DNA of 36,972 nucleotides from Candidatus Poribacteria bacterium (GTDB lineage: Bacteria > Poribacteria > WGA-4E > WGA-3G), in assembly GCA_026702755.1 (NCBI GenBank), contig JAPPBX010000121.1, forward strand, positions 1 through 36,972. The letters are read 5' to 3'. Under the pieces are notes generated by a model. That model had not been told where the DNA came from and made no database searches. It worked only from the letters and a program-made list of their open reading frames with translations. A program made the translations under genes and the position numbers. Within the stretch, counting starts at the first letter, position 1. Every line of letters begins with the position of its first letter. This document shows, piece by piece, positions 34-7,290 of this stretch.

Positions 34-390
34 CTAACGACATCGCCAGTCGTCTTCCTTCCACAACGTTCTATACTCAGTCTCACTTCTGTTAAGTCGC
101 CTATTCTCCATACCGTGCGGAGTATGTTCCAGAGAGATTCCACCACCCCAGGCTCGTGTGGGTTGATATGTTTTTGGTGGGTGATTAACAGTCGCTGTCC
201 AGATTTTTTCGCCCTCTTCAGAATAGACGATGTTCGCACTTTCTCCTGCACAGACATAATGGATCGTTAGCGGACGTATCCATTTAACGTTACGGGTAGC
301 CTCCGCTGGTTTCAACAGAATAAGAAGAGATGCTGTAAACCCGAAAACAAAAGCGAGGCAGATTAAACTTCCAAACCATTTTTTTACCAT
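34..390 (-). CDS. Small secreted protein, unknown function (118 aa)
   Basis: Not recognised. The N-terminus is basic (MVKK) followed by a hydrophobic segment (about residues 7-26) and a possible signal-peptidase site near AEA at 29-31, so the product is probably exported or anchored. The mature part is small and polar, with Cys47 and Cys117 that could form a disulfide. An AAGGAG-type ribosome site about 7 nt upstream of the ATG (positions 398-403) supports the start. It is the last gene in a run of minus-strand envelope genes led by the sigma factor ending at 5643, but a 214-bp gap with a perfect palindrome at 513-530 separates it from the lipoprotein upstream, so it probably has its own promoter. 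Confidence 0.6.
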   Translation of the reverse strand: MVKKWFGSLICLAFVFGFTASLLILLKPAEATRNVKWIRPLTIHYVCAGESANIVYSEEGEKIWTATVNHPPKTYQPTRAWGGGISLEHTPHGMENRRLNRSETEYRTLWKEDDWRCR

Positions 391-512
391 GATTAAATCT
401 CCTTATAGAAATGAGAAAGCAATAGATAAAGGGGTGCTTCTGCCTATCCCATCAACAAACCTTTACCCTTTAACTTTTTGCTTTCCGTTTAACTGAAATT
501 GGGATAGATGTT

Positions 513-530
513 AGGTGAACAGATTCACCT
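513..530. repeat. Perfect 18-bp palindrome (operator or hairpin candidate)
   Basis: AGGTGAA and TTCACCT are separated by CAGA. The palindrome lies about 120 bp upstream of the small secreted protein gene and 75 bp past the stop of the lipoprotein gene. A dyad this short and perfect, with no U-run after it, fits a dimeric regulator site better than a terminator. No regulator gene is adjacent. Confidence 0.35.
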
Positions 531-604
531 TTAGATCCGTTATGAAGCCAGTGTGTACTCTCAAATGTAAAACCTGAATAAGAAAGTTTCTTGTGGGACA
601 TTTC

Positions 605-1495
605 TCACTCGTCCTCCTCTTCTTCTTTAGGTGGCACGATATCATCTGTCTTTACATCCTTAAATGGGATTCCATTGGCTTTCGCTTTCCGAAATCTTTC
701 AAGGAGCCGCGGTGCTATTTCATCGTCCGGATGGAGATGGACTATTGCTTCAAGGTAGGTGAGGTAATCTTCTTCAGTGATAGGGAGACCCAATGCGTCC
801 TTTCGATGAAATTCCGCCATGATACGCGTCTGCGGAGTGTCGCCATGCTCTTCAATGAGCCGTTCAAGTTCAAGTTGCGCCCATAACTCTGGGTCTTGCT
901 CCCGCAGTTCCTCATAAGTAGGCTCCGCCGCGTCTTTCCGAGCGTTTTCGAGCGTACGTCGATTGTTTTCAGTGGGAAAAAGATGATAGAGTGCCTCAAG
1001 ATAGGCAATACGTTCCCCAGGTTTCAGCGTGAACCAAGGGATTTCCATCGTTGATGCTATCGCATCTTTTAATTGCCGATTTGCGACAGTGTGAACCTGC
1101 GGAATGTCTCCAAACTGTTTGATGAGTTGGGCACGGTAGTATTCGGCGCGTAAAACCGGATCTTCCGTATGGAACCAGTGGTCTGGAATTGCGAGTTTCC
1201 GCTTGCTGAGTAGAAAACGAGCGTATGCGGCGCGTAGAGCAGGGTCTTCTGTCTTCTCCCAATCTCGCGGAACACGCTTTTTCCGAGCGTTAAGTTCTGC
1301 ATAGATAGATTCAAGACGTAAAATGAGGGCATCCAATTCTCCTGTCCTATCGGTAGTTAGACTTGATGTATCTGTTGGGTCTAAGGGGTTAGTCGTTTCG
1401 GTTTCTACATCTTCTCCGCCTCCACAAGCGAGGAAGCAGAGAACGAAAAGACAGATGAGATAACAGAACAGCGGTAAAATACGCGGCTTTTTCAT
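605..1495 (-). CDS. Lipoprotein with two ~80-residue repeat modules
   Basis: The N-terminus is a lipoprotein signal: basic MKKPR, a hydrophobic core, and a lipobox FLAC with lipidated Cys24, followed by GGGED. After a polar linker there are two related modules. The first begins near WFHTEDPVLRAEYY, continues through KQFGD and ends YLEALYHLFP. The second runs from EEHGDTPQ to YLEAIVHLHPDDE. The same module occurs once in the next upstream protein (1492-2148). The C-terminus is very acidic (EEEEDE). The helical, Leu/Ala/Glu-rich repeats resemble helical repeat scaffolds, but I cannot assign a named family. The start codon overlaps the stop of the upstream gene as ATGA, so the two are translationally coupled. 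Confidence 0.75.
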   Translation of the reverse strand: MKKPRILPLFCYLICLFVLCFLACGGGEDVETETTNPLDPTDTSSLTTDRTGELDALILRLESIYAELNARKKRVPRDWEKTEDPALRAAYARFLLSKRKLAIPDHWFHTEDPVLRAEYYRAQLIKQFGDIPQVHTVANRQLKDAIASTMEIPWFTLKPGERIAYLEALYHLFPTENNRRTLENARKDAAEPTYEELREQDPELWAQLELERLIEEHGDTPQTRIMAEFHRKDALGLPITEEDYLTYLEAIVHLHPDDEIAPRLLERFRKAKANGIPFKDVKTDDIVPPKEEEEDE

Positions 1496-2148
1496 TCTGG
1501 GTCTCCTTCAGATACCATTTTGACTTCCACACCTTTCGCTCTTAGTTCGCGATGGTGGTTGAGCGTGTTCAGCGTCCTTTCTCTCGGAAAGAGATGATAG
1601 AGTGCCTCAAGATAAGTAATGAGTTCGTCATGTGTTGGCGTTATCCCCATCGCCTCATTTAGTTCCCAATCTGAGACAGTGCGAACCTCTGGGGTATCCC
1701 CAAACTGCTTGAGCATCTGAGCACCGTAGTATTCAGCACGCAAGACAGGGTCTTCTGTCTTGTACCAATCTTTGGGAGGATATGTATCAGCAGCGTCGGC
1801 AACTTCTGTCTTTTGCTTAGTTTGTTTCCACGGATCATTCTTTGGCGGTGGTGTCTCAAACGTGCTATCGTCTCGCCAGTCATACTTTTTCTCCTTTGTG
1901 GCGGGCACTGCTGCGTGTTCGTGAGAACCGTGATTATGGGGATGGTCATGACTGTGATCGTGAGTTATGGGAGCCTCTTTTGTAGTTGTATCTGTCTGTA
2001 GCGGACGTTGTTTGGGTGTGGGCTGCGTCGTCTTATAGATATGAACCGGTTCCGTCGGTGTCCTGCCACGCAAGAAAATGTGTGTGCCGATACCGAAGAC
2101 TATAAGTCCTGCGAGTGCGAAAAACCATATCTTTTTGAAAAAATTCAT
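1492..2148 (-). CDS. Membrane-anchored protein with His-rich run and shared repeat module
   Basis: One N-terminal transmembrane segment (about residues 7-26, after MNFFKK) places the rest outside the membrane. A linker contains eight histidines between residues 63 and 78 in a (H-x)n pattern, typical of Zn/Ni/Cu-binding loops. The C-terminal part has one copy of the module found twice in the downstream lipoprotein: WYKTEDPVLRAEYY, KQFGDTPEV, then YLEALYHLFP. Similarity is visible in the DNA as well (around 981-1003 and 1591-1613), so the duplication is fairly recent. It is coupled to the next gene by an ATGA overlap and follows the 263-aa lipoprotein after 39 bp. Function unknown; metal binding is an inference from composition. 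Confidence 0.75.
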   Translation of the reverse strand: MNFFKKIWFFALAGLIVFGIGTHIFLRGRTPTEPVHIYKTTQPTPKQRPLQTDTTTKEAPITHDHSHDHPHNHGSHEHAAVPATKEKKYDWRDDSTFETPPPKNDPWKQTKQKTEVADAADTYPPKDWYKTEDPVLRAEYYGAQMLKQFGDTPEVRTVSDWELNEAMGITPTHDELITYLEALYHLFPRERTLNTLNHHRELRAKGVEVKMVSEGDPE

Positions 2149-2187
2149 GTGTTCACCTCTCAGTGTGGGAGTTTCCGATTCAATCTC

Positions 2188-2979
2188 CTACTTATTGGAG
2201 TTCACCCAGAACAGGAAATGATTCGTGGTTAAAGGATCAACAAAAGTATTCAAGATGAATCCAAACGTTCTCGGTTCTTCAATAGCGAGCCATAAGAACC
2301 CATCGTCTTGGCCATATTTATGAAAGCGTTCTTGGACTTCCTTCCTCGCTGCTTCGGAACGTTCCTTCGCTAAATTTTGATAAGCATCCTCAAATGCGTC
2401 GAATTCTTTTCGATTCCCCCTAACCAAATCAATCACATTGTGGAAAATAGGACTGGTATACAAGCGATCAAATTTTTCTTCAAGGTGCTGGACCCGAAGT
2501 AACGTGGGTTCAGTTATTTCAAAGCTTTGGAAGAGTACAACGATTTGATAAAAGTGGGCTATCGTCTGATCATCAGGGCGATGTCTAAAGTGTTTCTTAA
2601 AAAGTGGAAGGAGAAGTGAATCAGCACTTGGAGGTGTTGTGTCAAGAAACTCGTTAAAAGTCTTAAAAGGTTTTGTTTTGAAGGATTTTGCTTGTTGTTC
2701 GGTGCGTTTCACATACGCTAAATAAAGTGCTGAGTTTGCAAGCTCCCTAAGTGTTTTGAAATCTTTATCTAAAAGTGAGCCGGGAAACTTGGCACGCAGC
2801 AGCGCGAACGTTTTCTTCTCTCCGTCTGCCACAGGTATGGAAGACTGTGAAGAAACGGATTCCACTTCTTCAGACGGTATAGAAGGGTTGTCGGACTTTT
2901 CCGCGCATCCGAAAAACAAAACCGTGCTAAGACACAGAAGTATAGCGAAGCATTTGAAAATGTAGGGTGTTTGGATCAT
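2188..2979 (-). CDS. Lipoprotein, unknown function (263 aa)
   Basis: A lipoprotein signal is clear: hydrophobic stretch from about residue 8 and lipobox LFFGC with Cys25, then AEKSDN and a Ser-rich linker. The mature domain (about 50-263) is predicted helical, rich in Phe, Lys and Glu, with a KHFRHRPDDQT segment reminiscent of the LHPDDE element in the neighbouring repeat proteins. No enzyme motif is visible. It sits 11 bp downstream of the 426-aa protein and 39 bp upstream of the His-rich protein, so it is likely part of one operon with them. Probably an outer-surface or periplasmic protein. Confidence 0.7.
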   Translation of the reverse strand: MIQTPYIFKCFAILLCLSTVLFFGCAEKSDNPSIPSEEVESVSSQSSIPVADGEKKTFALLRAKFPGSLLDKDFKTLRELANSALYLAYVKRTEQQAKSFKTKPFKTFNEFLDTTPPSADSLLLPLFKKHFRHRPDDQTIAHFYQIVVLFQSFEITEPTLLRVQHLEEKFDRLYTSPIFHNVIDLVRGNRKEFDAFEDAYQNLAKERSEAARKEVQERFHKYGQDDGFLWLAIEEPRTFGFILNTFVDPLTTNHFLFWVNSNK

Positions 2980-2990
2980 AAGAATTTCCT

Positions 2991-4271
2991 CTAATCTTGT
3001 TGCATTGAGTCTTTACGTTGACGCGTTTTTCTAATCTGTTCGGCAATTTCTGGATCTGATTCTTTGAGTCTGCGGAGTCCCTCTTCGGGTCCATAGCGAT
3101 TGAGGGTTTCTATAGCACGTGCCAAGCGTTGGGGTTGAAACTGTTTGTGAAGTGCTGCTTCCATGCGTTCTTCGGTTGGCAGTTCAGGCATATCCGGTAT
3201 AAACTGCTTTTCGAGTTCTGCATCACCTGTTATATGAATTAGGAGCTTTTCGAGTTCTGCGGGTTCTAACGTCTTGTTACTGTCCGATGCCGGTTGTAAA
3301 TGCGCACTCGCTTCGGGGTGAGTGTGTGTCATTTGTGCGGTTTCGTCTTGGATGTGTGAGGATCCAACTGACACGGAATATTCCTCCGCAGTAGAGGAGA
3401 GCTGCCGAGTTGTATCTTCTTGCGGGAAGAAGGTGCCCGTCCACCCTTTTGCCCTGAGTGCGGGTTCCATCCAAGGTGGAGGTGTCCATCCTTCTGGCGG
3501 CATCCATCCATCTGGGGGTAGCGTCAATCTTTCTATTAAAACTTCGCGCGAGATAGGCGGTGGTGCCTCAGCGAGGTGTTCTCCGTTTTCATCAATATAG
3601 ATGACTTCATACCCTTGGGGTTCAATGCCCTTATGTAGGAGGTCGAACTCTTGCGTCTTATCAAGGGACTCGCCAAAGAACATAGCACCCGTTTCTTGCA
3701 CTCTTTTAACATAGACGCGTCCAGGCTTAGCAGGGAGAAAGATTTCCATGTCGGGTCCTGTAAAAAGGCCTCCGTTCACATCCGGATCGATCTGTTTTGC
3801 GGCACGGAGTTGATCATACTCCCAAATCTTTCTTTCAATATACGCGGCTTTAAACGTCTCCCAATCGGTAGTAGGCGGGATTCCGAAAACATCGGATGTC
3901 CACATTTCGGGTTGGGTTTCAAGTTGAACCAATGCGTTGCGCGCTACCATATATCCAGAATAATCGTTGTAATCTTCTATTACAATACCTTTGTCAAGGA
4001 GCATTTCAAGCCACTCAACTTGAGGGTACTTCTCATCCACCACGGAATTACCCGCCATGTCTTCAAACGATTTAAGGAGTGCTTCAACGGTTTGAGGACC
4101 ATCGTGTTTCTTAGATGGAAGGTGTCGAGAAAAAGATGCCCTCAGTTTTGGCGATACCACATTGGAATTATTTTCAAACTGCGGTTGCCTGTGCGTCCGG
4201 ATAACAAAACAGGTAACAAGTCCAATAATCACCGAAAGGACGAACATGTAGATAACAGTTCTGCGTATCAT
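2991..4271 (-). CDS. Membrane-anchored extracytoplasmic protein (426 aa)
   Basis: One N-terminal transmembrane helix (about residues 7-24, after MIRR) is followed by a long hydrophilic extracytoplasmic part. Features seen are a Trp/Pro-rich repeat near residues 250-275 (DGWMPPEGWTPPPW), a His/Thr/Glu-rich stretch, and a charged C-terminal helical region ending in DPEIAEQI, which echoes the DPELWAQ element of the lipoprotein at 605-1495. No catalytic motif is recognisable. AAAGGA about 8 nt upstream supports the ATG. It is the first gene of the likely operon 4271 to 605. Function unknown. Confidence 0.7.
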   Translation of the reverse strand: MIRRTVIYMFVLSVIIGLVTCFVIRTHRQPQFENNSNVVSPKLRASFSRHLPSKKHDGPQTVEALLKSFEDMAGNSVVDEKYPQVEWLEMLLDKGIVIEDYNDYSGYMVARNALVQLETQPEMWTSDVFGIPPTTDWETFKAAYIERKIWEYDQLRAAKQIDPDVNGGLFTGPDMEIFLPAKPGRVYVKRVQETGAMFFGESLDKTQEFDLLHKGIEPQGYEVIYIDENGEHLAEAPPPISREVLIERLTLPPDGWMPPEGWTPPPWMEPALRAKGWTGTFFPQEDTTRQLSSTAEEYSVSVGSSHIQDETAQMTHTHPEASAHLQPASDSNKTLEPAELEKLLIHITGDAELEKQFIPDMPELPTEERMEAALHKQFQPQRLARAIETLNRYGPEEGLRRLKESDPEIAEQIRKTRQRKDSMQQD

Positions 4272-4290
4272 CAGAGAAATCCTTTTTGAA

Positions 4291-4313
4291 AGGGTAGATT
4301 TGAAACCTACCCT
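4291..4313 (-). terminator. Short hairpin between surface-protein genes
   Basis: AGGGTAG pairs with CTACCCT around a GTTTCAAAT-type loop. Read on the minus strand it follows the stop of the gene at 4332-4706 and is followed by TTTC, so it may act as a weak terminator or attenuator before the 426-aa gene. Its centre (GGTTTCAAA) matches the palindrome family seen at 9461, 10524 and 25436. Confidence 0.35.
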
Positions 4314-4331
4314 CTCGTAACTTTAGCGGTT

Positions 4332-4706
4332 TCAACGGGTAAAGCTATTCATAGAACCTTGGGCACTTACGTACTTCATATCCCACGGGTTACAGGATGT
4401 GCGAACTTTGAGCTCACCGGTACTACAAGTACCATTTACGTAGACTTCAGCCCAAATAGTACCCGCATCCCGGACAGCTGGTTCCGAATTGACCTGAACC
4501 TTCACGCTACCTCTCCCTTCATAATACCCTGCCGAGGCAAAGGCACCAACTCTAACATCTGTGGCAGCAACCAATTCATAGTCTCCCTCATGCTCCCATG
4601 CATAAACATAAACATCATGCAAATAAAAAGCTGTCGCGATGCTAATTCCGAAAATCATGGCGAACAGGCACACGACAACGACCACTTTGTATGAAAGTAA
4701 TTTCAT
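4332..4706 (-). CDS. Small secreted protein, unknown function (124 aa)
   Basis: The N-terminus (MKLLSYK plus a hydrophobic stretch to about residue 27) is a signal peptide or anchor. The mature part is rich in Val, Gly, Ser and aromatic residues with alternating patterning (for example GSVKVQV, IWAEVYV), suggesting a small beta-sandwich, with Cys93 and Cys105 placed for a disulfide. GAAGGAG lies about 7 nt upstream of the ATG. It lies between the structured RNA candidate (read in the opposite direction from about 4849) and the 426-aa gene. No family assigned. Confidence 0.65.
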   Translation of the reverse strand: MKLLSYKVVVVVCLFAMIFGISIATAFYLHDVYVYAWEHEGDYELVAATDVRVGAFASAGYYEGRGSVKVQVNSEPAVRDAGTIWAEVYVNGTCSTGELKVRTSCNPWDMKYVSAQGSMNSFTR

Positions 4707-4834
4707 CAGTTTTCTCCTTCATTTATGGGGATTGCTTTGGGAATAGGAAGGCAAACGGTAAGGTGTTGCGTTCTTGGCAATCCCTTGTTATATAAGGTGC
4801 TAACCTAAAAATTTCACAAAACAAGGCGTTTTAT

Positions 4835-4842
4835 GCTACAAT
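4835..4842 (+). promoter_or_regulatory. Extended -10 promoter box for RNA candidate 1
   Basis: TGCTACAAT (4834-4842 with its leading T) is an extended -10 element. The same TGCTACAAT stands 11-12 nt before an identical TGTCATA in the second copy (6660-6668). No good -35 is seen, as is usual for extended -10 promoters. Predicted RNA start about 4849. Confidence 0.5.
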
Positions 4843-4848
4843 TAGGCT

Positions 4849-4988
4849 AACGCTGTCATAGACCAGTTATGGCAGGGTTCTCCGCGCCGACCGGTGTCAC
4901 TTCCACCCTCGGCGCACCTTTCAAAAAAAGAAGAGACTGCCACATACAAAACTATTTCGTCACATTATACGGAAAAAGACGAAAATAG
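4849..4988 (+). ncRNA. Structured RNA candidate, copy 1
   Basis: Unknown family. Seen in the sequence: hairpin TGTCATA/TATGGCA (4854-4860 with 4868-4874, 7-nt loop); a long-range pair GGCAG/CTGCC (4871-4875 with 4937-4941) that shares bases with the first hairpin, so the two exclude each other; an internal GC-rich stem (4884-4890 with 4909-4915) topped by GGTG/CACC; and a 3' stem (4952-4961 with 4978-4987). The copy at 6673-6816 has the same order of elements with different sequence in the internal stem. G-U pairs present on the plus strand become A-C mismatches on the minus strand, which favours plus-strand transcription. It reads towards the 3' end of the sigma gene, so an antisense or shared-terminator effect is possible. 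Confidence 0.45.
4946..4988 (-). terminator. Probable terminator of the sigma-factor gene
   Basis: On the minus strand, about 20 nt past the sigma stop codon, CTATTTTCGTC pairs with GACGAAATAG (one bulged base) and is followed by TTTTGTAT. This looks like an intrinsic terminator and would separate the sigma transcript from the surface-protein genes. The same stem may close the plus-strand RNA candidate. Confidence 0.5.
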
Positions 4989-5007
4989 CCAATAACTCTT
5001 TATTCGA

Positions 5008-5643
5008 TTACTCACCCCCTCCACTTAAGAAATAATAGATATCAGGATAACGCTTTTTTAACCACGTCTTAAATGCCACTAACGCCCGATGATATCGAGA
5101 CTTGGCAGTTCCTGTTCTGATGCCCAGTGTTTGCCTAATCTCCTCAAACGTCATATCGCTGTTGTGCCTTAATTGAAAGACTTCTAATTCTTTGGGACGC
5201 AGCGTGCACTCAAAACGGCGGCGGATCTCTGCAAGTTCGTTATCAAGAACGCCGTGTTCCGGTTGAAACGTCACGGGTGCGGAAAGCAATTCTGTGAGAG
5301 CCATTTGCCCCGATTCATCTTCTGGATCGGCATCCAATACGACCAGCACACCTTGCTTCTGTTTCTCCTTAATCCATTTTACGAGGACACGTGTTGCGAT
5401 TGTGGATAGCCACGCCCCAAAACGTTCCGGAGACTGAATCCCTTCTAAGTTTTGCAGTGCCTCAAGGAATGTTTCTTGAACGAGATCTTCTGCATCTTCA
5501 CGATTTCCGCTGATTCTCCTTTTGAAAAACGTGTGAAGGGGAGCCCTATATCGTTGAAAAAGGACATTCCCTGCGACTTCATCGCCTTCCTGATAGCGTT
5601 GCAAAAGTTGTACATCACTATATTTTTTATAATCGGTTAGCAT
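5008..5643 (-). CDS. ECF-type RNA polymerase sigma factor (211 aa)
   Basis: Sigma-70 family, extracytoplasmic-function type: only regions 2 and 4 are present. Region 2 spans about residues 20-95, with the core-binding DLVQETFLEAL motif (53-63) and a FGAWLSTIATR segment. Region 4 spans about 147-195, with a helix-turn-helix MTFEEIRQTLGIRTGTAKSRY that would read the -35 element. Length is normal for the class. AGGAAAGGG lies about 9 nt upstream of the ATG. No anti-sigma gene is adjacent, which is unusual for classical ECF pairs; control may be transcriptional or through a C-terminal tail. The downstream same-strand array of exported proteins is the natural regulon candidate, but this is inferred from position only. 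Confidence 0.92.
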   Translation of the reverse strand: MLTDYKKYSDVQLLQRYQEGDEVAGNVLFQRYRAPLHTFFKRRISGNREDAEDLVQETFLEALQNLEGIQSPERFGAWLSTIATRVLVKWIKEKQKQGVLVVLDADPEDESGQMALTELLSAPVTFQPEHGVLDNELAEIRRRFECTLRPKELEVFQLRHNSDMTFEEIRQTLGIRTGTAKSRYHRALVAFKTWLKKRYPDIYYFLSGGGE

Positions 5644-5666
5644 TTAACGCTACCCTTTCCTAATTA

Positions 5667-5695
5667 AGTGTAAAAATTGGGTAAAAAGGTTGCAA
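5667..5695 (-). promoter_or_regulatory. Sigma-70-like promoter of the ECF sigma gene
   Basis: On the minus strand, TTGCAA (5690-5695) and TACACT (5667-5672) are 17 bp apart and lie about 24 bp upstream of the start codon. This fits a housekeeping promoter rather than an autoregulated ECF promoter. Confidence 0.5.
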
Positions 5696-5780
5696 AAAAA
5701 TAATTCCGTCTTCCCAATTCGGTCATTAAGACTTACGCAGATTAGGGAAGTCACTTTGACCTGAAAATCCTTGAATCCTG

Positions 5781-5798
5781 CCCCCCTGATAAGGGGGG
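5781..5798. repeat. CCCCCCT-GATA-AGGGGGG hairpin repeat
   Basis: A perfect 7-bp stem with GATA loop followed by ATACAGGGGGG. A close relative (CCCCCT-GATA-AGGGGG, then ATTTAAGGGG) is at 12225-12240. It belongs to a dispersed intergenic hairpin family. It is 33 bp downstream of the stop of the gene at 5831, on its 3' side, and may help terminate it. Confidence 0.6.
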
Positions 5799-5830
5799 AT
5801 ACAGGGGGGTTATTCCGCTTCAGACAATCA

Positions 5831-6181
5831 TCAAATCACATGTCCATCTTTAATGATGCCCTTCTCCTCCAAAGCAGCAAGCGCATTCTCAGCAAAGCCG
5901 GACGGGATACGCAGTTTCCGGCTGAGATGCTTCGGATCCAGCAACCCACCATAAGAGAGGTGAAGCCAGACGAGAATCTCCTCGCGGGTTAAGTTCGCCT
6001 GCTTGGCGACAGGCACAAACTGCCACATCTTCTCGGTTGCGTCGAGTGTGTTGGTGATGATCTGGAGGTAAATCAAGACTTCTTCTTTGTTGAGGTCGTT
6101 TCGCACGGCTGCGCGGACGAAGGCAGGGATGTCAAGATCATACCGGAGTTGTATGATTTCTTTGGTAGGTAAAGCTGGCAT
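5831..6181 (-). CDS. Small winged-helix-like protein, unknown (116 aa)
   Basis: Not firmly recognised. The last ~45 residues (LSRKLRIPSGFAENALAALEEKGIIKDG) read like a winged-helix DNA-binding domain: recognition helix, then a turn and a KGIIKDGHVI wing. The rest is helical and Leu-rich. I chose ATG 6181 because AAAGGA lies upstream and the extra N-terminus of the longer form (from 6292) is encoded by a low-complexity direct repeat (CTCACTGCGAGG / CTCACTACGAGG) and an AACTGATAACC intergenic motif. The longer form does overlap the upstream micro-ORF as ATGA, so 6292 remains possible. It could be a small transcription regulator. Confidence 0.55.
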   Translation of the reverse strand: MPALPTKEIIQLRYDLDIPAFVRAAVRNDLNKEEVLIYLQIITNTLDATEKMWQFVPVAKQANLTREEILVWLHLSYGGLLDPKHLSRKLRIPSGFAENALAALEEKGIIKDGHVI

Positions 6182-6288
6182 AAAAAAATAAAATCCTTTG
6201 AATTGGTTATCAGTTGGTTCTCCTCGTAGTGAGAGTTTGCCTCGCAGTGAGAGTTGCCGGTTCAGATACGGCACAACTGGAGCTACAC

Positions 6289-6381
6289 TCATTTGAAAAG
6301 GGAAGTTATCTTCAAGAAAGCAAATGTAATGCAGATGATGACAGCGAGGGCGAGAGGTATCGGTTTAAACAAACTTCTCAT
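6289..6381 (-). CDS. Micro-ORF, 30-aa hydrophobic peptide
   Basis: Reading ATG at 6381 to TGA at 6289 gives a 30-residue peptide with a basic N-terminus (MRSLFK), one hydrophobic stretch of about 18 residues (IPLALAVIICITFAFL) and a basic end. AAAGGGG lies about 6 nt before the ATG. Its stop overlaps the alternative ATG at 6292 of the next gene (ATGA). It could be a single-span membrane peptide or a leader. Below the usual annotation size, so uncertain. Confidence 0.4.
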   Translation of the reverse strand: MRSLFKPIPLALAVIICITFAFLKITSLFK

Positions 6382-6465
6382 CGTCGGCCCCTTTCGGTTG
6401 TTCACCGAGCGTGTTTATCTCCTATCCGTGTTGGGACAAGTGACCGGTTGACACGGCGGTTGTAT

Positions 6466-6597
6466 TCAAGGGTGACAGGTTTCGGGGAACGGACGACAAG
6501 GATCATGCGCGGCACGTGTAAGGTACAGCGCGACGTTTAGTATCGTCACGAGGAAGAAAAGCGCGATGGGGACCCACCGCAAGAGGCGTGTTTTCAT
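6466..6597 (-). CDS. Micro-ORF, 43-aa membrane or secreted peptide
   Basis: ATG at 6597 to TGA at 6466 encodes a 43-residue peptide: MKTRLLRW, a hydrophobic core of about 17 residues (VPIALFFLVTILNVALY), then a polar tail with two cysteines (positions 34 and 41) and several prolines. AAAAGGAG lies about 8 nt upstream, a good ribosome site. It starts about 70 bp from the structured RNA copy 2 and faces away from it, the same arrangement as the secreted protein at 4706 and RNA copy 1. Function unknown. Confidence 0.45.
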   Translation of the reverse strand: MKTRLLRWVPIALFFLVTILNVALYLTRAAHDPCRPFPETCHP

Positions 6598-6659
6598 GTT
6601 AGGCACTCCTTTTTTAGGGGCTGGTCCCCATAAATAACACACAACGAAAACCCGTTATC

Positions 6660-6668
6660 TGCTACAAT
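6660..6668 (+). promoter_or_regulatory. Extended -10 promoter box for RNA candidate 2
   Basis: TGCTACAAT, identical to the box in front of copy 1 (4834-4842) and at nearly the same distance (12 versus 11 nt) from the shared TGTCATA. Predicted RNA start about 6673-6675. Confidence 0.5.
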
Positions 6669-6672
6669 AGAA

Positions 6673-6816
6673 ACCAGCGTTGTCATACTCATACTATGGC
6701 AGTGCTACGCGTGGCAGGTGCTTGATACACCTGCTGCGCACCCCGAAAACGGGGAGCTGCCCCTGACGCGATTCACACGGTGTTAGCAAGTGTGCTTCAG
6801 CATGAAATCAGCGTCA
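6673..6816 (+). ncRNA. Structured RNA candidate, copy 2
   Basis: Same plan as copy 1: TGTCATA/TATGGCA hairpin (6681-6687 with 6695-6701), overlapping long-range GGCAG/CTGCC (6698-6702 with 6757-6761), an internal 12-bp stem (6709-6720 with 6728-6739, two G-U pairs), an extra CCCCG/CGGGG hairpin (6741-6754) and a 3' stem (6764-6773 with 6806-6816, one bulge). The sequence of the internal stem is unrelated to copy 1 but the pairing is kept, which is the mark of a selected RNA fold. No protein gene starts within 600 bp downstream, so it is more likely a stand-alone RNA than a leader. Family unknown. Confidence 0.45.
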
Positions 6817-7017
6817 ATATAAAGTATACCATAAAATACAAAAATTGTCAATTTTTTTATAGAACCTTTAAAACCTTAAAATTTGACTCACTATAACTTA
6901 CCGCACGGTAGGCGAAAGACTTTCCAAATCCTGCCGAATTTTGCCACTTTTTCAGGGGTCCCTAATGAAGTTTGCGAAAGTAAATCAGTCTTGCAGTGAA
7001 CCCCAACGCTTTTCTGA

Positions 7018-7290
7018 GTGCTTTCTTGAGATGTAACCATAACTGTCAATTTTAGAAAAATGAACCGTCTCGAATCCAGGCCCGGTAGGTTCGGTTTGCA
7101 ACCGAACCGGATTTACGCGGAAACTTTGAAGACTTCAAGCACCTCTTGAATCCCGTAGGGATGGTATCTCTGTAGAAAAACGTGTGCCCCACAAATCAAG
7201 CCCCGTAGGGGCGGCATTTGAAGAGATACCCTATAAAATGCCGTGCAAAATCCCTAAATTGACACCTATGGTGCTTTCTTGAGATGTAAC
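7018..7290. repeat. 20-bp direct repeats flanking a 233-bp segment
   Basis: GTGCTTTCTTGAGATGTAAC occurs at 7018-7037 and again, identical, at 7271-7290. The segment between carries a 22-bp motif (7039-7060) shared with 33133-33154, a strong palindrome (7088-7108) and CCCGTAGGG-type motifs. It could be an insertion with a long target duplication or the remains of recombination. Confidence 0.6.

Follow-up and report, generated by a model that had tools for sequence, protein, structure and literature searches.

Small RNAs (sRNAs) of the MicF/ompC type are divergent from an envelope-protein gene and regulate envelope proteins, and transposon-encoded guide RNAs such as omegaRNA and the IS110 bridge RNA are structured, multi-copy and endowed with variable loops. 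In the divergent type I toxin-antitoxin loci (tisB/istR-1, shoB/ohsC, zor/orz, dinQ/agrB and timP/timR) an sRNA lies next to, and is encoded divergently from, a gene whose leader is structured and whose product is often a membrane protein (PMC4147584; PMC7667032), and the criterion for this class is an extended complementarity between sRNA and leader, of about 20 nucleotides (nt) in tisB/IstR-1 (PMC4147584). In the present study we have analysed a window of 36,972 nt, which is the whole stretch from position 1 to 36,972 (forward strand) of contig JAPPBX010000121.1, assembly GCA_026702755.1, from Candidatus Poribacteria bacterium (GTDB lineage Bacteria; Poribacteria; WGA-4E; WGA-3G), whose genome, labelled G000, is 96% complete. 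The window contains two copies of a small RNA that is strongly structured and had not been described before; copies of it were found in one Poribacteria family only, and as an RNA family we regard it as secure. The RNA is new, and as a system the locus is akin to the known divergent sRNA-operon units. We propose, with a probability of roughly 45%, that this stand-alone sRNA and the operon divergent from it form a control unit in which the two promoters exclude each other.

The first-pass annotation of the window had described two copies of an unrecognised structured RNA, in which a hairpin TGTCATA-N7-TATGGCAG (H1), an internal GC stem, CTGCC and a bulged 3' stem follow one another. All of these are present in both copies and in that order. 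The coordinates then given for the two loci are about 13-15 nt off: TGCTACAAT, which had been counted as the first element of the RNA, lies that far before the proposed starts and is an extended -10 box instead. Both copies fold far more stably than their dinucleotide shuffles (z -3.70 and -4.17). The RNA, about 100-170 nt in length, consists of the hairpins H1, H2 and H3, a conserved single-stranded AGCUGCC and a variable 3' hairpin (H4 in copy 2), whose TGACG/CGTCA ends recur in most copies of the lineage called type A.

A covariance model of the family was built from 11 members. In the alignment of 101 distinct copies, which was fitted to this model and so is biased towards the modelled structure, 93.8% of the pair cells are standard pairs, two-sided change occurs in 18 of the 29 pairs (9.6 in shuffles) and in 235 cells (84.6 in shuffles), and covariation over H1, H2 and H3 amounts to 0.264 against 0.126 after shuffling, a value that none of the 500 shuffles reached. 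The signal is lost when the columns are slid by 1-3, a MAFFT alignment of the 11 members gives the same picture, and RNAalifold, run unaided, also yields H1 and H2. The covariation first noticed between the two window copies holds, and most of that in the family is borne by H2, in which 9 of 12 pairs show two-sided change over the 101 copies. H1 is nearly invariant in sequence and includes U·G pairs; since these would be A-C mismatches on the opposite strand, the RNA lies on the plus strand, in agreement with the orientation originally read from G-U pairs. H1 and H2 have hypervariable apical loops, with 0.50 and 0.45 differences per site among 17 close relatives versus 0.01-0.02 in the H1 stem. 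The sequence between the elements had been called unrelated, which is right for these two copies because they come from different lineages, with the start arms TTAGGCTAAC and AGAAACCAGC.

We have hardly any doubt that the RNA family is real. A pattern search of G000 gave 8 copies, with 0 in the reversed control, and matches were obtained in 31 of 60 relatives, all of the same genus. The covariance model, whose use the first-pass annotation had recommended, located 14 confident copies in G000 (E <= 2.5e-10). Across the phylum it detected the RNA in 56 of 85 Poribacteria genomes, every one of them a member of the family of the window (three of its four genera), with 1-16 copies per genome; within this family 54 of 58 genomes hold copies at E 0.001. 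None was detected in 26 Poribacteria genomes from other families; stricter filters in the large searches can drop weak matches, and this absence is valid for the present model only. Over 84,980 species the exact H1 pattern occurs in Poribacteria and in seven records not so labelled (six from other phyla and one unnamed metagenome-assembled genome), which we rejected as weak partial matches; four of the seven have in common one conserved stretch that reads as protein-coding and which we presume, from reading and not from a search, to be phosphotransacetylase. The same pattern has no match in the viral collection. Rfam recognised only the tmRNA and a tRNA in the window and no RNA copy at the gathering score, and relaxing E up to 10 brought chance matches only, with nothing credible at the RNA copies, so that the RNA belongs to no Rfam family and, as initially thought, is by Rfam neither tmRNA nor 6S RNA. 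A literature search retrieved no paper on the Poribacterial RNA, though a description that never entered Rfam may exist among the 224 candidate RNAs of a 2017 survey. As for the arrangement of copies, close pairs occur elsewhere as in the window, and about 1 kb separates a weak, degenerate copy (23 bits; L094:8030-8122, contig C68 of G000) from a strong one. One 288-kb contig (G017 C2) carries three nearly identical type B copies (L102, L103 and L104) that have the same cargo, a recent amplification, perhaps on a second replicon.

Beyond the first-pass annotation, a promoter, an inverted repeat, a divergent operon and a multi-copy dispersal were recognised. The box TGNTANAAT is an extended -10, matching TATAAT at 5 or more of the 6 positions in 105 of 108 copies and carrying TG in 102 of 108, and from the usual spacing of 6-7 nt the RNA probably starts at or beside the first base of H1. 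With its own predicted promoter and a covarying secondary structure, the RNA combines the two features by which a stand-alone structured RNA is recognised. An inverted copy of the start sequence is mirrored about 37 nt away and is preceded by a weaker -10-like box, present (at least 4 of 6 bases) in 69 of 104 copies versus a background of 18%. The distance between the two -10 boxes is mostly 19-30 nt, about 25, and therefore polymerases at the two promoters should exclude each other. The start arms differ by lineage (AGAAACCAGC in type A, TTAGGTTAGC in type B), and the arms of the inverted repeat change together between lineages: they match at 8.4 and 9.1 of 10 positions within a lineage and at 5.8-5.9 when taken between lineages or shuffled. 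A wider regulon of promoter plus type A arm was discarded, all 10 exact matches in the genome being RNA copies, and so was an invertible promoter, the strong -10 staying on the RNA side in nearly all copies.

By simple calling of open reading frames (ORFs), and over loci that are not fully independent, the upstream ORF is divergent from the RNA in 99 of 103 loci, and the downstream gene is randomly oriented (45 plus, 53 minus). Because of this random orientation we rejected a riboswitch-like 5' untranslated region of the downstream gene, and the early exclusion of riboswitches stands by position. The divergent leader opens with the arm, often continues with a short complementary stretch and UUGCC, and is common to unrelated cargo, as we call the divergent genes. 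These encode secreted or membrane proteins or serve DNA modification, and include type II or III and type I methyltransferases, an Hma-type ATPase, small-molecule methyltransferases, beta-propellers, TonB-like and cadherin-like proteins and many unknown membrane-anchored proteins. By a hydrophobicity rule, and not a signal-peptide predictor, a hydrophobic segment near the N terminus was scored in 29 of 32 type B cargo proteins versus 5 of 31 downstream genes, and in 19 of 57 versus 11 of 57 for type A. Two observations on the neighbours stand apart. Several downstream genes of type B loci (e.g. L112, L154, L180, L210, L105, L109 and L149) look, on reading their sequences, like sigma54-activators or extracytoplasmic function (ECF) sigma factors. 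In the methyltransferase loci L029 and L084 and their orthologues the leader before the methyltransferase start contains AUAGUCCU, which might base-pair with AGGACUAU across the start codon and so suggests a translational self-control.

The cargo is exchanged beside the RNA. Copy 2 lies within a 640-bp unit repeated in G000 with different flanks, and its RNA is beside its downstream neighbour gene in 2 of the 30 genomes examined; an empty-site analysis at this copy in the same 30 genomes did not define the ends, the intergenic DNA of genomes lacking the RNA being too diverged. At one syntenic site, contig C69 of G000 compared with genome G005, the far flanks correspond (81-82%) and the RNA unit has been retained (87%), with different genes on either side of it; G005 still has 307 bp matching the end of the G000 methyltransferase region. 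Here the cargo was replaced beside a retained RNA. Furthermore, the copies on C117 and C87 have methyltransferase regions 95% identical and RNA units 89% identical, which points to recombination between cargo and RNA unit.

The RNA is nearly always back-to-back with the promoter of the neighbouring operon and hence probably represents the constant element of a gene-control unit in which the target genes are exchanged. We propose that the RNA would be transcribed from the extended -10 promoter, back-to-back with the weaker promoter of the divergent operon, whose leader would start with the same sequence as the RNA. RNA polymerases would exclude each other at these two close promoters, and the operon promoter would be kept down whenever the strong RNA promoter fires; the inverted repeat formed by the common start sequence would be the expected site of a common regulator. 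The RNA may add a further control through a protein or a trans target bound by the invariant H1 stem and AGCUGCC, and would not pair antisense over a long stretch with its own neighbour; if it acts at all, such a protein partner or trans targets are more likely. Some form of regulation of the divergent operon by the unit is probable; that promoter exclusion is the main route of this control is a tentative proposal. More tentative still is a wider reading, in which a clade-specific expression platform of bidirectional promoter, sRNA and structured leader was duplicated and its accessory operons (surface proteins, DNA-modification or defence genes) were exchanged with the RNA-linked control kept.

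Several results weigh against this proposal. The leader-side -10 is weak, most of all in type B, the upstream ORF was not divergent in 4 of the 103 loci, and neither window copy was found to have an intrinsic terminator at its 3' end. The H1 loop is no more complementary to its own divergent region than to those of other loci, RNA:leader duplex energies are not enriched over controls, and the ungapped complementarity scores 23.2 with the own leader, 22.2 (sd 3.0) when shuffled and 22.5 with other leaders; an action of the RNA on the operon therefore has no sequence support.

These values also bear on the possibility that the RNA is a type I-like antisense repressor, pairing with the leader of a divergent membrane-protein mRNA. 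The layout is the same, adjacent and divergent with a structured leader; copy 2 and its paralogues adjoin a gene for a hydrophobic membrane peptide of 43 amino acids (aa), which would be the toxin in this reading, most type B cargo opens with a membrane segment, and in a short split match the leader GCAC...UUGCC could pair with the 3' arm of H1, GGCAGUGC. This match is, however, poor in paralogues with the leader AGCCCC, the other cargo is large and includes methyltransferases and ATPases unlike toxins, and an extended complementarity to the own leader above shuffled or other leaders is missing; we consider such a repressor unlikely. The same lack of pairing, the functionally unrelated cargo and the near invariance of the H1 stem and AGCUGCC, as would be expected where a protein or a common target binds, would suit a general trans-acting or protein-binding RNA that merely carries the divergent gene along as the unit spreads. 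The 99:4 divergent bias, the matched arms and the leader start common to unrelated cargo argue instead for a link with the neighbour, and make this explanation rather doubtful.

The locus could also be the non-coding part of a non-autonomous mobile element, its structure serving mobility (as a guide or in recombination) and not regulation, which would account for the dispersed copies, the repeated unit with different flanks, the rare company of copy 2 and its neighbour gene and the hypervariable 7-nt loop of H1. This is improbable in view of the persistence of copies at orthologous sites between species; no transposase or recombinase is common to the recurrent neighbours, terminal repeats and target duplications were not found, and the viral collection was devoid of the exact H1 pattern. 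Far less probable is the two-state switch put forward by the first-pass annotation, in which GGCAG pairs either in H1 or with CTGCC. Although this complementarity is intact in 66 of 101 copies, in which such a pairing is conceivable, covariation of the alternative helix equals that of shuffles (0.014 in both), and GGCAG is constant (99 of 101) whereas CTGCC changes without compensation in about a third (CAGCC, GTGCC, CTACC, AAGCC and others). Moreover, a 5-bp helix would need to displace the 12-bp stem of H1, and there is no downstream gene of fixed orientation on which a switch could act in cis. The control unit with mutually exclusive promoters is our preferred explanation, and the features of the two loci in the window are collected below.

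Features of the two RNA loci in the window (promoters, hairpins and genes as predicted)
Feature	Position	Strand	Details
Copy 1 divergent probable six-gene operon	34-4706	-	Genes 4332-4706, 2991-4271, 2188-2979, 1492-2148, 605-1495, 34-390; N-terminally hydrophobic proteins without Pfam match
Copy 1 inverted repeat	4799-4851		Arms GCTAACCTAA (4799-4808) and TTAGGCTAAC (4842-4851), enclosing the back-to-back promoters
Copy 1 left arm	4799-4808		GCTAACCTAA, start region of the divergent leader
Copy 1 extended -10 of RNA promoter	4834-4842	+	TGCTACAAT; sequence, promoter scan; TTCACA at 4813, spacer 18
Copy 1 hairpin H1	4849-4879	+	Arms 4849-4860 and 4868-4879; 7-nt loop GACCAGT
Copy 1 hairpin H2	4884-4915	+	Arms 4884-4896 and 4904-4915; covariation
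Copy 1 weak hairpin H3 and CTGCC	4917-4941	+	H3 about 4917-4935; conserved single-stranded CTGCC 4937-4941
Copy 1 3' hairpin	4952-4988	+	CTATTTCGTC / GACGAAAATAG; sequence, fold; sequence not kept between lineages
Repeated unit holding copy 2	6390-7035		Peptide gene, leader, divergent promoters, RNA, conserved non-coding 3' block
Copy 2 divergent 43-aa hydrophobic peptide	6466-6597	-	MKTRLLRWVPIALFFLV...; first gene past the divergent leader
Copy 2 inverted repeat	6620-6678		Arms GCTGGTCCCC (6620-6629) and AGAAACCAGC (6669-6678), enclosing the back-to-back promoters
Copy 2 mirrored -10-like box	6630-6635		ATAAAT (minus strand ATTTAT)
Copy 2 extended -10 of RNA promoter	6660-6668	+	TGCTACAAT
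Copy 2 hairpin H1	6676-6706	+	Arms 6676-6687 and 6695-6706; 7-nt loop CTCATAC
Copy 2 hairpin H2	6709-6739	+	Arms 6709-6720 and 6728-6739
Copy 2 hairpin H3 and AGCTGCC	6741-6761	+	CCCCG/CGGGG (6741-6745, 6750-6754); conserved AGCTGCC 6755-6761
Copy 2 3' hairpin H4	6764-6816	+	TGACGC ... GCGTCA; fold

The start and the leader of the copy 2 peptide gene are conserved in paralogous units, and the copy 2-like units of G000 also share a strongly conserved non-coding block 3' of the RNA (about 6870-7035). An exact 20-bp direct repeat, GTGCTTTCTTGAGATGTAAC (7018-7037 and 7271-7290), encloses about 233 bp whose termini are imperfect inverted repeats of 17 bp (7036-7052 and 7256-7272); this insertion, absent from the paralogous units, resembles a miniature inverted-repeat transposable element. 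Between the two RNA copies lies an ECF sigma factor gene (5008-5643), and contig C39 (L095:411-1043) bears a near-duplicate arrangement of type B RNA and sigma gene, with related distal operon genes and a different first operon gene.

These results provide the uncultured phylum Poribacteria with a structured RNA family that is well supported and has no entry in Rfam 15. If the unit controls the adjoining operon, one RNA-linked promoter would serve interchangeable cargo, including restriction-modification and envelope proteins, and it would become testable how accessory genes come under common control in this phylum. Among known RNAs, the Poribacterial RNA is small and structured like 6S RNA (RF00013), but it has serial hairpins in place of a rod with an open central bubble and is multi-copy; no 6S match was obtained anywhere in G000, whereas control genomes do match. 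It resembles omegaRNA and the IS110 bridge RNA in being structured and multi-copy with variable loops, and differs from them in that no nuclease or recombinase family recurs among the clustered neighbours within 6 kb of the copies, the clusters having been judged by their sequences and some of them scanned with Pfam. Like the MicF/ompC-type sRNAs it is divergent from its neighbour, and an envelope regulation is plausible for the type B cargo; it is nevertheless a different RNA, multi-copy, with no target found and with part of the cargo non-envelope. The divergent type I loci have the closest layout, in that the Poribacterial RNA also adjoins, and is divergent from, its neighbour. The unit departs from them in its back-to-back promoters within an inverted repeat, in its varied and often large cargo and in an antisense complementarity that does not exceed controls. 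Because tests for this defining complementarity did not reveal it, we do not class the RNA as a type I antitoxin, even though it may work in a similar setting.

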